From assembly GCF_001577265.1 (NCBI RefSeq), contig NZ_CP014517.1:2950501-3014500 (forward strand): a stretch of DNA of 64,000 nt. The letters are read 5' to 3'. Of the stretch, positions 1-7,657 are shown piece after piece; within the stretch, counting starts at the first letter, position 1; the number at the start of each line of letters is the position of its first letter. A program made the position numbers and the translations under genes. The notes under the pieces were generated by a model. It saw nothing but the letters and a program-made list of their open reading frames with translations. It did not search any database and was not told the DNA's origin. Source of the DNA: Variovorax sp. PAMC 28711. Its GTDB lineage: Bacteria; Pseudomonadota; Gammaproteobacteria; Burkholderiales; Burkholderiaceae_C.

Positions 1-1692
1 CGGCAGCGACGTCGCCGGCTCGCACGTCAGCAGGTTGCCGTCGGCGCGCACCGCGTAGGTCTGCGGATCGATCTCCATCTTCGGCACCATGCCGTTGTGG
101 ACCATGTGTTGCTTGCGCAGGCCGCGGATGTTCTTCACCGCGCTCAAGGTCTTCTGCAGGCGGTAACGTTCACCGATGCCGTTCGCCAGGCCGGCTTGCG
201 AGACGAAGGTCAGCGAGCTTCTCGCGAGCGAGCCGCCGTAGGCGCCGAACATCGGGCGGTAGTGCACTGGTTGCGGGGTCGGGATCGAGGCGCTCGGGTC
301 GCCCATCGCGGCCATCGCGATGGTGCCGCCCTTGAGGATGGTGAAGGGTTTCACCCCGAAGAAGGCCGGCTTCCACACCACCAGGTCCGCCCACTTGCCG
401 ACTTCGATGCTGCCCACTTCGTGCGCGATGCCGTGTGCGATGGCCGGGTTGATCGTGTACTTGGCGATGTAGCGCTTCGCGCGGAAGTTGTCGTTGCGCG
501 CGCTGTCCTCGGGCAAGGTGCCGCGCTGCTGCTTCATCTTGTGCGCGGTTTGCCAGGTGCGGATGATGACCTCGCCGACGCGGCCCATGGCCTGCGAGTC
601 GGAGCTGAACATGCTGATGGCGCCCAGGTCGTGCAGGATGTCTTCGGCCGCGATGGTTTCCTTGCGGATACGCGATTCGGCAAAGGCCAGGTCTTCCGCG
701 ATGCCGGCATCCAGGTGATGGCACACCATGAGCATGTCGACGTGTTCGTCGAGCGTGTTCACGGTGTAGGGCATCGTCGGATTGGTGGACGAGGGCAGGA
801 AGTTGTCTTCGCCCACGACGCGCAGGATGTCCGGCGCATGGCCACCGCCGGCGCCTTCGGTGTGGAACGCGCAAATGGCGCGGCCGCCCACGGCGGCGAT
901 GGTGTTCTCCACGAAGCCCGACTCGTTCAGCGTGTCCGAATGAATCGCCACCTGCGTGTCGGTGGCATCGGCCACGTCGAGGCAGTTGCTGATCGCAGCG
1001 GGCGTGGTGCCCCAGTCTTCGTGCAGCTTGAGGCCGATCACGCCGGCGTCGATCTGCTCGTGCAGCGCGGCCGGCAGGCTGGCGTTGCCCTTGCCGAGAA
1101 AGCCGAGGTTCATCGGAAACGCATCGGCGGCCTGCAACATGCGCTCGATGTGCCAGGGGCCGGGCGTCGCGGTCGTGGCGAACGTGCCGGTGGCCGGGCC
1201 GGTGCCGCCACCCAGCATCGTGGTCACGCCCGACGAGAGCGCCTCCTCGATCTGCTGCGGACAGATGAAATGGATGTGGCTGTCGATGCCGCCGGCCGTC
1301 ACGATGTTGCCTTCGCAGCTGATCACTTCGGTGCCGGGGCCGATCACGATGTCCACGCCCGGTTGCACGTCGGGGTTGCCGGCCTTGCCGATGGCCACGA
1401 TGCGCCCGCCCTTCAAGCCGATGTCGGCCTTGACGATGCCCCAATGATCGATGATCAGCGCGTTGGTCATGACCGTGTCGACGGCGCCCTGGGCGCGCGT
1501 CATTTGCGACTGCGCCATGCCGTCGCGGATCGTCTTGCCGCCGCCGAACTTCACTTCTTCGCCGTACGCGCCGGCGCGCAGCGTGTAGTCGGCTTCGACT
1601 TCGACGATCAGGTCGGTGTCGGCCAGCCGCACACGGTCGCCCACGGTGGGTCCGAAGATTTCCGCATACGCGCGGCGTCCGATCGTTGCCAT
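1..1692 (-). CDS. ureC: Urease subunit alpha (3' end outside the window)
   Basis: Catalytic subunit of the nickel urease, which hydrolyses urea to ammonia and carbamate in the cytoplasm. 564 codons are present and the reading ends at ...EPATSLP. Family members close with a few more residues (usually ending in YFLF), so only about eight are missing. All nickel-centre signatures are visible: the HIH pair in GGIDSHIHF, the carbamylated lysine and histidine in GLKLHEDWG, a histidine in VAIHSD, a histidine in [11 protein letters not shown], the flap Cys-His in MVCHHL, and the aspartate in FSSDSQAMG. The ATG overlaps the ureB stop by one base (TGATG), which indicates translational coupling. It is the last visible gene of the ureA-ureJ-ureB-ureC run. 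The accessory genes ureE, ureF and ureG would be expected beyond the edge. Confidence 0.98.
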
Positions 1693-1997
1693 CAGAGTTT
1701 CCCTTGGACCAGGCCGCGAAAGCCGTAGACGATGCGGTCGCCCGCGTAGTCGACCAGCTCGACCGTGCGTTGCTGGCCGGGCTCGAAGCGCACCGCCGTG
1801 CCCGATGCGATGTTCAGCCGCATGCCATGCGCTGCAGCGCGGTCGAAGCCGAGCGCGCCGTTCGTTTCGGCGAAGTGGTAGTGCGAGCCGACCTGGATCG
1901 GCCGGTCGGCGGTGTTCTGCACGACCATCGTGAGCGTGCGGCGCCCGGGGTTGAGCACATGCTCGCCCTCGTCGGTGAAGAGTTCGCCGGGGATCAT
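1692..1997 (-). CDS. ureB: Urease subunit beta
   Basis: Small structural subunit of the urease apoenzyme, 101 residues, the usual length for a free-standing UreB. The start was placed at the ATG giving MIPGELF, which is the conserved beginning of the family. The open frame extends further upstream, but that part only reads through the end of ureJ. The body carries the typical [19 protein letters not shown] core. It is coupled to ureC by a one-base stop/start overlap and follows ureJ after 16 bases. Confidence 0.97.
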
Positions 1998-2013
1998 GGG
2001 CCGGTGCTCCGCG

Positions 2014-2616
2014 TCAGGCGGCTTGCGCCAGCAGCACGGCGCCGAACAGCACGACGGCAGCGCCGGCAACGCGCGGCACCCACACATTCGCGTGGCGCAG
2101 TGCCCAGCCGATGGCGATGCCGGCGGCGTGCAGCAGCACGGTCGCGCCGACCATGCCGGCGAGCGTCAGGGCCGCATCCGGGGTGCCGGCCAGTTCGTGG
2201 CCGTGCGCCAGCCCGTGGAAGATCGCGAAGGCGCCGACCACGATGGCCGCGGCCACGGCCGACATGTGCGTGCGCGTGACGACCAACAGGCCGAGCAACA
2301 GCAGCGAGGCCGCGATCATCGGTTCGACCGCCGGCAGTTGCACGCCGGCCAACCCCATCAGCGCACCCACCAGCAGCATGCCGGCGAAGGCCAGTGGCGC
2401 CCACAGCAGATCGGGCCAGGCGCGGCGCGCGGTGAGCGCGCTCCACAGGCCGACAGCGACCATCGCCGTCAGGTGGTCGGCGCCGGTGACCGGGTGCATG
2501 AAGCCGGCGACGAGGCCGTGGTGCAGGCCGGCATCGGCGCCGGTGTGCGCGCTGGCAGCGAGCGGCAGCACCGACAGGAGCGTGACGAGGGAAAGGGTTT
2601 TGGCAGCGGTTCGCAT
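2014..2616 (-). CDS. ureJ: HupE/UreJ family membrane protein
   Basis: Polytopic inner-membrane protein of about 200 residues. It has a cleavable-looking hydrophobic N-terminus (about residues 5-24, ending ASAH) followed by about six membrane segments. Conserved histidines lie in the HPVTGADHL and HGLAHGHE motifs that define the HupE/UreJ family. Members are thought to move or sense nickel or urea-related solutes, and their placement inside urease operons supports nickel supply for the enzyme; the substrate here is inference. A TTG start overlapping the ureA stop is possible. I chose the ATG at 2616 because an AAGGA sits about eight bases before it. Confidence 0.88.
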
Positions 2617-2642
2617 GAAGGCGGTCCTTGTTCTTGTGAGGT

Positions 2643-2945
2643 TCAAACGATCGGCTGGTGCACGGTCACGAGCTTGGTGCCGTCGGGAAAGGTCGCTTCG
2701 ACCTGGATGTCCGGGATCATTTCGGCGATGCCGTCCATCACGTCGGCGCGGGTCAGCACGCTGCGCCCGGCGCTCATCAGCTCGGCGACGCTCTTGCCGT
2801 CGCGCGCACCTTCCATCACGGCGGCTGAAATCAGCGCGATGGCTTCCGGGTAGTTCAGCTTGAGCCCCCGGGCTTGCCGGCGCTCAGCCAGCAGGGCCGC
2901 GGTGAAGATCAGCAGCTTGTCTTTTTCGCGGGGCGTGAGTTCCAT
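2643..2945 (-). CDS. ureA: Urease subunit gamma
   Basis: Smallest structural subunit of urease, exactly 100 residues as in most bacterial UreA. It begins [11 protein letters not shown] and contains the conserved LNYPEAIA and [11 protein letters not shown] stretches. It is the first gene of the visible urease run and is transcribed away from the sensor kinase gene. Its upstream region contains a strong match to a sigma-54 promoter at 3005-3021. There is no ureD in front of it, unlike many proteobacterial urease operons, so the accessory gene must lie elsewhere. Confidence 0.98.
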
Positions 2946-3004: not shown

Positions 3005-3021
3005 TTGCAACAGTCGTGCCG
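3005..3021 (-). promoter_or_regulatory. Candidate sigma-54 promoter of the urease operon
   Basis: On the minus strand the bases read CGGCACGACTGTTGCAA. This matches the -24/-12 consensus (TGGCACG-N4-TTGCA) except at the first base, and the GG and GC pairs are exactly ten bases apart. Transcription would start near 2996, giving a leader of about 50 bases to the ureA ATG. Nitrogen control of urease through NtrC and sigma-54 is known in other proteobacteria; its operation here is inferred. Confidence 0.6.
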
Positions 3022-3037
3022 TGGCACGGAATCTGCA
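3022..3037 (+). promoter_or_regulatory. Candidate sigma-54 promoter facing the sensor kinase gene
   Basis: On the plus strand TGGCACGGAATCTGCA matches the -24/-12 consensus with one deviation (CTGCA for TTGCA) and keeps the ten-base GG to GC spacing. It abuts the opposite-strand element, so both share the near-palindrome CGTGCCGTGGCACG. A start about 12 bases after the GC pair would fall at the proposed GTG start codon. That would make the kinase message nearly leaderless, which weakens this call compared with the minus-strand site. Confidence 0.42.
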
Positions 3038-3050
3038 CCGAAACGGTGTG
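3034..3050. promoter_or_regulatory. NtrC-like dyad (TGCACC-N5-GGTGTG)
   Basis: TGCACCGAAACGGTGTG differs from the NtrC consensus TGCACC-N5-GGTGCA by two bases in the right arm. It lies just upstream of the minus-strand sigma-54 element (centre about 46 bases before the predicted ureA start). It also overlaps both the plus-strand -12 element and the GTG codon of the kinase gene. Occupancy could therefore activate urease and hinder kinase expression; that is inference. Confidence 0.4.
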
Positions 3051-6000
3051 AACCCCGACGACGCCACAGCCGCCACCGACAACGCGCCCCAGCGCATCGT
3101 CAAGGTCCGGCGCGACTACAACAGCTGGGTCGCGAGCGAAACGCTGGAAGACTACGCGCTGCGCTACACGCCGCAGCGCTTTCGCAAATGGTCGGAGTGG
3201 CGGGTCGCCAACACGGCGTTCGGCGCGGCGTCGTTCCTGATCCTGGAAGCCGTGGGCGCCACGCTGCTGGTGAAGTACGGCTTCGCCAACGCGTTCTGGG
3301 CCATCTTGGTCACCGGCCTGATCATCTTTCTCGCGGGCTTGCCGATCAGCGTGTACGCCGCGCGCTACGGCGTCGACATGGACCTGCTCACGCGCGGAGC
3401 GGGCTTCGGCTACATCGGCTCGACGCTCACCTCACTCATCTACGCATCGTTCACCTTCATCTTCTTCGCGCTGGAGGCGGCCGTGATGGCCTACGCGCTG
3501 GAGCTCGCCCTGGGCATCCCGCCGGCGTGGGGCTACCTCATCTGCGCGCTGGTCGTCATTCCGCTGGTGACACATGGGGTGTCGGCGATCAGCCGGCTGC
3601 AACTGTGGACGCAGCCCATCTGGTTGTTGATGCTGGTCGTGCCTTTCGGCTATGTGCTGGTGCGCGATCCGGGTGCATTTTCCGGCATCACGCACTACAG
3701 CGGTGAAAAAGGCGGCGCTGCAGGCTTCGATCTGCGCCTCTTTGGTGCGGCGCTCACGGTCGGCATCGCGCTCATCACGCAGATGGGCGAGCAGGCCGAC
3801 TACTTGCGCTTCATGCCCGACCGCACCGGGGCCACACGCGGCCGGTGGTGGGTCGGCGTGCTGGCGGGCGGGCCGGGCTGGGTGATTCTGGGTGTCATCA
3901 AGATGCTCGGCGGCGCGCTGCTCGCGTACCTCGCGATCACGCACATGGTGCCGGTCGAGCGCGCGGTCGACCCGAACCAGATGTACCTCGCGGCCTACGA
4001 GTACGTGTTCCCGAACTACGGATGGGCCGTGGCCGCCACCGCGCTGTTCGTGGTGATCTCGCAGCTCAAGATCAACGTGACCAATGCCTACGCGGGTTCG
4101 CTCGCGTGGAGCAACTTCTTCTCGCGCGTCACGCACAGCCATCCGGGCCGCGTGGTGTGGGTGGTGTTCAACGCGCTCATCGCCTTCATGCTGATGGAGA
4201 TGAACGTGTTCGAGGCGCTGGGCGACGTGCTCGGCCTCTACGCCAACATCGCGATCGCCTGGATGATGGCGGTGGTGGCCGACCTGGTCATCAACAAGCC
4301 GTTGGGGCTGTCGCCGCCGGGCATCGAGTTCAAGCGCGCGCATCTGTGGGACATCAACCCGGTCGGCGTCGGTGCGATGGCACTGGCTTCGGGGCTGTCG
4401 ATCACGGCGCACCTCGGCTTCTTCGGGCCGATGGCGCAGTCGTTCTCGGCCGTGATCGCGCTGGGCACCGCGCTCGTCACCTCGCCGCTGATCGCCTGGG
4501 TCACAGGTGGCAAGTACTACCTCGCGCGCGGGCCGTTGTGGAAGGCGTCCGTCCCCGCGGTCGCGCAGGGTGACGGCAAGCGCCAGAAAATTCGCTGGGC
4601 GCGGGTGCAGGCGCCGGTGGGCGCACAGGCGTTCGCCGTGCAGCGCTGCGTGATCTGCGAACGCGAATACGAAGGCCCCGACATGGCGCACTGTCCGGCC
4701 TACCAGGGCGCGATCTGCTCGCTGTGCTGCACGCTCGATGCGCGCTGCGGCGACCTGTGCAAGCCGCAGGCGAGCCTCTCGGCGCAATGGTCGGGCGCGC
4801 TGCGCTGGCTGCTGCCGCGACGCACCTGGCCGTACCTCGACACCGGACTCGGCCATTTCATGCTGCTCACGATGATCATCGTGCCGCTGCTCGCCGCAGT
4901 GTTCGGCGTGTTGTACCAGCAGGAACTGCGCGGCGTGGCCGACGTGATGCGCGCCGGCACCGACACCGCGATCCAGCTCGGCAGCGCCATCGATTCGGAA
5001 GTGCGCACCGCCTTGCGGTCGGGCTTCTTGAAGGCCTACATGGCGCTGTTGCTCATCGCGGGCATCGTCGCCTGGTGGCTCGTGCTTGCGCACCAGAGTC
5101 GCAAGGTGGCGCAGGAAGAATCGAACCGCCAGACCCATTTGCTCGTGCGCGAGATCGAACTGCACCGCGAAACCGACCGCGCCTTGCAGGCGGCCAAGCA
5201 AACCGCAGACGAGGCGCGCGAGATCGCCGAGCAGGCCAAGCTCGCGGCCGAACGCGCGCAGCGCGCCGCCGATCAGGCCAACCAGGCCAAGAGCCGCTAC
5301 ATCAGCGCCATCAGCCACGAGCTGCGCACGCCGCTCAATTCGATCCTCGGCTATGCGCAGCTGATGGGCGAAGACGCGTCGGTGCCGCCGCACCGGCAGC
5401 AGGCGGTGGCGGTCATCAAGCGCGGCGGCGAGCACCTGTTGTCGCTCATCGAAGGCACGCTCGACATCGCGCACATCGAGGCCGGCAAGCTCACGCTGCA
5501 TGCGCGGCCGATGCGCTTCGCCGATTCGCTGCGCGAGCTGGCCGACATGTTCGAGCTGCAGGCCGAAGAGAAGGGCCTGGCTTTTCACTTCGAGCCGGCC
5601 GATGCACTGCCCGAGGTGGTGCGTGCCGATGAGAAGCGGGTGCGCCAGATCCTCATCAACCTGCTCGGCAACGCGATCAAGTTCACCGCGGCCGGCCGCG
5701 TCACCTTGCGGCTGGCCTATGCGCGCGAGTTCGCCACGATCGAGATCGAAGACACCGGCCCTGGCATGGCCGCGGAGGACATCGAGCGCATCTTCGAACC
5801 CTTCGCGCGCGGCAACGTCGCCGGCACGTCGGCGCCCGGCGCCGGCCTCGGCCTCACCATCGCCAAGATGCTGACCGACCTGATGGGTGGCGAGATGAAG
5901 GTGCAGAGCACGCCCGGCGAAGGCTCGGTGTTTCGCGTGCGGCTGTTCCTGCCGCGCGTGCACGAGTCGCCCGCAGTGCCCGGCCGCCGCGTGGTGGCCC

Positions 6001-6658
6001 GCATCGCGGCGCCGGCGCCGCGCGCCCGTCGCGGTTACCAGGGCGCGCGGCGCCAGCTGCTGGTGGTCGACAACGAAGAGGCCGACCGCGAATTGCTCGT
6101 GCAACTGCTCGCGCCACTCGGCTTCGAGCTGCGCACCGCCGCCAGCGGCCACGACGCACTCGACCTGGTCGCCGCGGGGCTGCGTCCCGACGCCGTGTTC
6201 GTCGACCTCGCGATGCCCGGCATCGACGGCTGGGAGACGATCCGCCGCGCGCACAAGCTCGGCTTGAGCCAGACCGCGGTGGCCATCGTTTCGGCCAATG
6301 CCTTCGACAAGCGCCTGGACAACGACGTCGGCATCACGCCGGAAGACTTCTTCGTGAAGCCGGTGCGGCACAGCGAACTGCTCGACTGGCTGGAGCGTCG
6401 CCTCGCGCTGCAGTGGACCGCCACGGCCGCTGCGCCCGCGGCGCCGGCAGCGCAGGCGATGGTTCGGCCTGCGCCTGCCCATCTGGCGGCGCTGGGCGAG
6501 GCGGTCGGTCTGGGTTACTTTCGCGGGATCATGAACCAGCTCGATGCGATCGACGCCGCCCAGCCCGAATGCAGTGCCTGGACCGGCGCGCAACGCCAGC
6601 TCGCGCGCCAGTTTCGGTTCGAGGCGATGAGCCGCCTGATGCTCGCGGAGGACGCGCA

Positions 6659-6662
<4 letters not shown>
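3048..6662 (+). CDS. Hybrid sensor histidine kinase with N-terminal NCS1 transporter domain
   Basis: Protein of about 1204 residues in four blocks. Residues 15-500 form an NCS1-type (cytosine/purine/allantoin permease) membrane domain with the family look of DYNSWVASETLEDYALRY near the start and LKINVTNAYAGSLAWSNFFSR later. Residues 534-571 are cysteine-rich (eight Cys including a CVIC pair), probably binding metal. Two membrane segments and a long Ala/Glu/Gln coil follow. Then come HisKA with phospho-acceptor His757 (SHELRTPLN), an HATPase with N, G1 and G2 boxes (NLLGNAIKF, DTGPGM, GAGLGLTI), and a receiver with Asp1053 (VFVDLAMPG). By analogy with CbrA, the transporter part may sense a solute. 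Divergence from urease suggests purine, allantoin or urea. The start is uncertain: GTG 3048 is preferred and GTG 3021 is possible. It is coupled to the next gene by an ATGA overlap. Confidence 0.9.

Positions 6663-7657
<995 letters not shown>

Follow-up and report, generated by a model that had tools for sequence, protein, structure and literature searches.

A Transporter-Like Domain and a Hybrid Kinase in One Chain

Divergently from its urease genes, Variovorax sp. PAMC 28711 encodes a protein that joins a permease-like domain to a histidine kinase, which raises the question of what solute this protein senses, transports, or both. The window analyzed here is a stretch of 64,000 nucleotides (contig NZ_CP014517.1, positions 2,950,501 to 3,014,500), and the features under discussion are collected in Table 1. 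The gene is an open frame of 1204 codons with a GTG start, the column of which is kept in an alignment of 12 intergenic regions. HisKA, HATPase_c, and receiver domains each scored above the Pfam cut-off, the kinase motifs are intact (H-box SHELRTPLN, receiver FVDLAMPG), and a partner regulator is encoded directly downstream, its ATG overlapping the TGA stop of the kinase gene (ATGA); the protein was therefore categorized as a hybrid histidine kinase. No HPt domain was listed in the Pfam search of the fusion. The original prediction, which had placed a permease-like domain and a hybrid kinase in a single chain, is confirmed. Conservation was read from four alignments, consisting of the window with 80 of 81 references (A1), 25 and 29 of 41 rows (A2 and A3, respectively), and the window with 73 of 78 others (A4).

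Table 1. Features of the fusion gene and its surroundings (window coordinates; residues refer to the fusion protein).
Feature	Position	Strand	Basis
NCS1-like permease / eight-cysteine / hybrid histidine kinase fusion	3048..6662	+	open frame, Pfam, alignment
NCS1-like (LeuT-fold) membrane domain, residues 15-495	3090..4532	+	AF2 model vs PDB, hhalign, alignment A3
Eight-cysteine module, residues 534-571	4647..4760	+	alignment, profile search of 398 genomes
Two long predicted helices, residues 601-636 and 645-704	4848..5159	+	AF2 models
HisKA domain, residues 747-813, SHELRTPLN at 756	5286..5486	+	Pfam, alignment
HATPase_c, residues 861-968	5628..5951	+	Pfam
Receiver domain of the kinase, residues 1005-1114	6060..6389	+	Pfam
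Response regulator, receiver and LuxR-type (GerE) HTH	6659..7657	+	Pfam
ureA, urease gamma, divergent from the kinase gene	2643..2945	-	NCBIfam/frame reading
HupE/UreJ-like membrane protein (presumed), within the urease operon	2014..2646	-	frame reading
ureB, urease beta; frame start uncertain	1692..2087	-	
ureC, urease alpha, truncated by the window edge	1..1692	-	
Sigma-54-like promoter GGCACG-N4-TTGC toward ureA	3007..3020	-	
Second sigma-54-like site GGCACG-N4-CTGC toward the kinase gene, 11 bases before GTG	3023..3036	+	

The frame between ureA and ureB has no NCBIfam match, and we take it to be HupE/UreJ-like. Opposite to ureC, the Rfam family 5_ureB_sRNA matched at 1244-1529 (+) with 99 bits (cut-off 40); most likely the family cross-matches conserved coding sequence of urease here, an antisense RNA being the less likely reading. 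Just before the first base of the window, between ureC and the urease accessory genes, lies a frame on the opposite strand (L172:15078-15464) that is presumably a Doc/Fic-like death-on-curing protein.

The Membrane Domain Resembles NCS1 Transporters

Family searches with the window protein itself gave little: the N-terminal 500 residues had no Pfam match at E 1, and the NCS1 family (PF02133) gave no match at E 10 at the place of the gene in the genome, its gathering score not being reached. A kinase-less relative (L170) that is 48% identical is above the PF02133 cut-off (31.8 vs 23.5 bits). When an AF2 model was compared with the PDB, the nearest solved folds among the families listed were the NCS1 members CodB and Mhp1, ahead of other LeuT-fold families. 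Searches of the PDB sequences with phmmer (residues 1-651) and with a profile of 29 membrane domains gave no match. In hhalign comparisons, 27 fused domains aligned with eight PF02133-matching proteins at E 6.4e-18 over 407 columns, vs a nonsignificant E of 0.024 (probability 2%) for the SSS set; the SSS and NCS1 proteins were taken from their loci by our own hydrophobicity rule, except two NCS1 proteins taken by coordinates. The eight Pfam families listed for the fusion do not include SLC5 (PF00474). All 29 rows of A3 agree at six polar positions of the permease core (E129, Q231, D237, K327, N329, and N332 in the numbering of that alignment). Fold comparison, hhalign, and the Pfam kinase domains thus bear out the fusion of an NCS1-type domain with a hybrid kinase. 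The two long helices that follow the cysteine module may, judging from the models, be membrane helices 13 and 14 continuing into a coiled coil.

Distribution of the Fusion and Linkage to Urea and Short-Amide Genes

Fusions of this kind gave 57 strong matches in 52 of 398 sampled Proteobacteria genomes, or about one genome in eight. Scanning the genome contigs with the domain yielded at least 531 relatives, of which the best 80 loci were kept; these belong to Comamonadaceae genera or to less resolved Burkholderiales, Betaproteobacteria, or Proteobacteria. A divergent ureA lies upstream in 70 of the 80, within 1 kb in 65. Among the ten loci lacking it, five have less than 1 kb of upstream DNA (L035, L059, L064, L101, and L108) and five have about 9 kb (L061, L068, L070, L081, and L085). 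Within the genus, the window's own locus included, ureA was found within 1 kb at 29 of 30 loci, the exception (L004) having 1.5 kb of upstream DNA without ureA. The LuxR-type regulator is encoded downstream at all 72 close-relative loci with at least 3.3 kb of downstream DNA. The predicted link to urease, for which conservation of the arrangement in related genomes had been named as a check, is therefore borne out in close relatives. A second type of fusion, about half-identical to the first, occurs in 28 of 37 genus genomes (counted by eye). A strong FmdA (formamidase) match in 27 of the 37 agrees with its presence in 36, likewise by eye, the one exception being a 73% complete genome; this concordance partly reflects physical linkage. 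FmdA was not found in the window genome, which has a strong UrtA match at 0.90 Mb.

To follow the linkage across the phylum, 52 of the 57 fusion loci and one distant stand-alone homologue (L293) were fetched, giving 53 loci, and UreA, UreC, UreD, UreG, UrtA, UrtC, FmdA, and amidase within about 10 kb served as markers, with match thresholds and linkage labels of our own choice. Such genes were present at 50 of the 52 fusion loci and in none of 20 control windows elsewhere in such genomes; the exceptions are two fusions at contig ends (L262 and L292), and the stand-alone L293 also lacks them. L293 adjoins a frame that by eye reads like a carbon-nitrogen hydrolase. The five remaining phylum-sample loci (the window, L007, L116, L118, and L153) all have urea or amide genes. 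By marker, FmdA was matched at 34 of the 53 loci, UrtA or UrtC at 46, and urease genes at 11. At L114, L117, L118, L155, and L157, neighbors scored above the NCBIfam cut-offs for UrtA, UrtC, FmdA, and aliphatic amidase. A separate set of 20 loci gave 18 with urea or amide genes; the L112 stretch lacks its 5' side, the same gene's upstream DNA being positive in L111, and L130 starts at a contig end. Linkage is clearly weaker in the class sample, where such genes were found at 10 of 18 loci and several loci are AT-rich or orphan. The eight without them are L154, L158, L161, L163, L164, L165, L166, and L169, of which L169 is a contig of 5.7 kb and L161 comes from the same genome as the fmd-linked L160. 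Taken as a family, the fusions show the conserved linkage expected of members of a urea/short-amide regulon.

The partner regulator was matched at 46 of the 53 phylum-sample loci, six of the 52 fetched fusions having no match at the thresholds used. At L241, L242, L243, and L245 the usual LuxR-type regulator was unmatched downstream with fmd and urt genes present, and the partner regulator may differ there. The frames of L280 and L283 (894 and 899 residues), both beside fmdA and with no regulator matched nearby, are apparently too short to hold the C-terminal receiver. In one AT-rich genome, two fusions (L163 and L164; 1223 and 1272 residues) had neither urea or amide genes nor a regulator matched nearby, so a change of ligand or partner is possible in these.

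The most telling linkage evidence comes from relatives without a kinase. The L170 permease gene stands after ureG and before a nickel transporter (NicO), in a urease cluster that also contains ureD, ureA, and ureC. At L155, fmdA, an fmdB-like frame, and an amidase come directly after a kinase-less permease, with a fusion encoded divergently from that permease. Both placements would suit a permease for urea or formamide.

A quick tree of 110 domains, with SH-aLRT support only and several long branches that leave the deep order unsure, assigned the window to a 20-row group (support 100) drawn from the window's family or from named Comamonadaceae, 17 of which have ureA nearby (the others being L068, L070, and L081). 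Closest to this group from outside are L154, where no urea or amide gene was found, L249 (urt/ure), L157 (urt, ureD), and the fusion of L155; formamidase linkage occurs on many other branches. At position D308, 31 of 33 urea-linked domains have Asp, and 44 of 52 formamidase-linked domains have Glu. With kinship taken into account, no residue could be shown to switch with linkage, and D308 is not claimed as a specificity residue: on the tree (85 labelled rows) there are just four changes of linkage type, and the paired test had two pairs on supported branches.

Sigma-54-Like Sites Between the Kinase Gene and ureA

The short region between the divergent genes contains two sites resembling GGCACG-N4-TTGC, which we take to be the sigma-54 consensus, one on each strand. 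Both were scored in 92 ureA-kinase intergenic sequences (85 distinct; the window is counted twice, once as L001). The ureA-strand site scored 10/10 at 65 loci and 9/10 at 21, compared with 15 of 1840 dinucleotide shuffles scoring at least 9. On the kinase strand, eight sites are perfect, 44 have one miss, and 40 have two, so that all score at least 8/10, as did 166 of 1840 dinucleotide shuffles. At 87 other loci, sites upstream were enriched on the kinase strand as well, with 4, 18, and 29 at ten, nine, and eight matches, respectively, vs 2, 27, and 157 of 1740 simple shuffles; the opposite strand was hardly enriched (0, 4, and 10). A sigma-54-type promoter would start transcription about 11-12 bases past the site, and an in-frame GTG stands 11 or 12 bases past the kinase-side site in 65 of the 92 sequences, the window included; in the other 27, the first start codon is at another distance or of another kind. 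Because the GTG lies about where transcription would start, the kinase message could be leaderless. In some species (L055 and L058), the two sites (3005-3036 in the window) are placed back to back and form a near-perfect inverted repeat; a long distance separates them in L003. Next to the start codon, an NtrC-like site was seen by eye, which is not kept in all 12 aligned loci.

Proposed Function

Because the fusion lies beside urease genes, and most relatives examined lie beside genes for urea or small amides, it is probably a urea-responsive two-component sensor, in which the NCS1-derived domain would sense and perhaps import urea; relatives adjacent to formamidase genes would play the same role for formamide-like amides. 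The LeuT-fold domain would bind urea, and its conformational state would reach the HisKA-HATPase core through a cytoplasmic eight-cysteine module and helices 13-14. The core would autophosphorylate and transfer phosphate to the co-translated LuxR-type regulator, and this in turn would adjust transcription of urea genes. Given sigma-54-like sites at both the kinase gene and ureA, the amount of the system would depend on nitrogen starvation, and its activity would depend on urea. LuxR-type regulators are not known to drive sigma-54 promoters, so that the urea genes are only candidate targets of this regulator.

Linkage is compatible alike with sensing urea, sensing a related amide, or plain transport, and the protein could instead be a true transporter whose flux the kinase reads, a transceptor with urea uptake as its main function rather than a relic. 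We regard this as possible, at lower confidence than the sensor: a capacity of the fold for transport is suggested by the kinase-less relatives that lie in urease and formamidase clusters, and CbrA both transports histidine and signals (PMC7096432, in the portion available). However, a second importer is not obviously needed, because a urt-type ABC transporter is encoded near 46 of the 53 phylum-sample loci. Equally tentative is a wider proposal drawn from the same sequences, namely that these domains form an undescribed NCS1 branch of urea/short-chain-amide permeases, used alone or as the input of hybrid kinases with eight-cysteine coupling, the window copy both importing and reporting urea. 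If this were true, it would amount to a urea/amide transceptor system widespread in Proteobacteria, the kinase-fused form being far commoner than the stand-alone one.

A kinase that responds to overall nitrogen status, its place beside urea genes being mere co-location, seems unlikely to us: the sigma-54-like sites do suggest NtrC-type control, but the same association is seen again and again in many families and for two distinct enzymes, and stand-alone permease homologues occur in such clusters as well.

The Eight-Cysteine Module

The cysteines at residues 534-571 are spaced as C-x2-C-x11-C-x7-C-x2-C-C-x5-C-x3-C, and the protein has only two others. When 398 Proteobacteria genomes were searched with a profile of the module, all 57 strong matches fell inside fusions of the family. 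A model of the module resembles two-zinc folds of the cross-brace type (FYVE/RING/PHD), the resemblance being weak, and the module may well hold two zinc sites; the metal-binding segment proposed by the original prediction is thus kept as a possibility. A model of the linker shows the module followed by long helices, with no STAC entry among the matches listed; the NCBIfam search listed 25 of 128 families.

A still less likely reading than the sensing of general nitrogen status is that this module, responding to zinc, nickel, an iron-sulfur cluster, or redox state, is the true input and the permease domain a mere anchor. All eight cysteines are invariant in 25 of 25 rows (A2), and urease requires nickel, yet these rows include formamidase-linked copies, and for this reason an input of nickel for urease alone is unlikely. 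The permease-core polar residues are just as invariant, and the resemblance to two-zinc folds, weak as it is, also counts against this reading.

Purines, Allantoin, and Hydantoin

Nucleobases, hydantoins, and allantoin are the compounds carried by NCS1 transporters whose substrates are known, and the original prediction accordingly named purine, allantoin, hydantoin, or a urea-related compound as the solute. Queries were made from the longest frames of two loci of the window genome (L340 and L341), of OHCU-decarboxylase/allantoinase-like and xanthine-dehydrogenase-type, which represent only part of the purine genes; they had no match at any of 111 context loci, of which 91 belong to the family and 20 are controls. 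The canonical NCS1 gene of the genome (L152) is at 0.839 Mb, with allantoinase-like and OHCU-decarboxylase frames near 0.833 Mb and a xanthine-dehydrogenase-type match at 0.820 Mb, a region 2.1 Mb from the fusion. Despite a fold nearest to CodB and Mhp1, we thus consider it the least probable of the alternatives that the protein senses or transports a purine, allantoin, or hydantoin with urea merely an end product, given the purine-type queries without a match at the family loci, the canonical NCS1 gene near such genes elsewhere, and FmdA at 34 of 53 phylum-sample loci. The urea-related part of the predicted solute is favored and the remainder is not supported, the neighbors being urt, ure, formamidase, and amidase genes.

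Comparison with Known Systems

Among the transporter-fused sensor kinases that we found described, all belong to one transporter family, SLC5. We found no description of an NCS1-kinase fusion among the titles listed from the literature searched, which lies outside subscription and supplementary texts; the available portions of PMC8399564 and PMC12411852 are unrelated to it. A urea-responsive fusion would be a second, independent case, with another coupling module and a predictable ligand, which would let the question of how transporter motion is coupled to a kinase be asked generally; in addition, 52 of 398 sampled Proteobacteria genomes would be credited with a dedicated sensor of urea or amides, of relevance to nitrogen cycling. 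For the urtABCDE-ure and fmd gene sets beside which the family is found, no regulator built in this way has been published to our knowledge.

CbrA uses an SLC5 domain to transport histidine and to signal, and a 2026 preprint on its structure calls it a rare transceptor (PMC13022988), with neither NCS1 nor urea appearing in the available part of its text. RpuS and CrbS, hybrid kinases of the SLC5-STAC type, are paired with LuxR-type regulators (PMC9100948, portion available), and the window fusion likewise combines a hybrid kinase with a LuxR-type regulator. Like these SLC5-STAC kinases, the window protein fuses a transporter-fold domain to a sensor kinase, and the predicted analogy to CbrA is upheld in this respect, although by the hhalign values given above its domain is of NCS1 type and not SLC5. 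Where those kinases have STAC and PAS domains, its models show the eight-cysteine module and two more helices, and their context is acetate, histidine, or pyruvate, whereas that of the window fusion is urea and amides. NCS1 transporters (Mhp1, CodB; PF02133) are the closest solved folds, and L170 passes the Pfam cut-off of this family; unlike them, the window protein is below Pfam detection, fused to a kinase, and linked to urea and amide genes. With the DUR3 urea transporters, for which a urea-bound structure is available (9vim, by entry title), it shares a LeuT-type fold.
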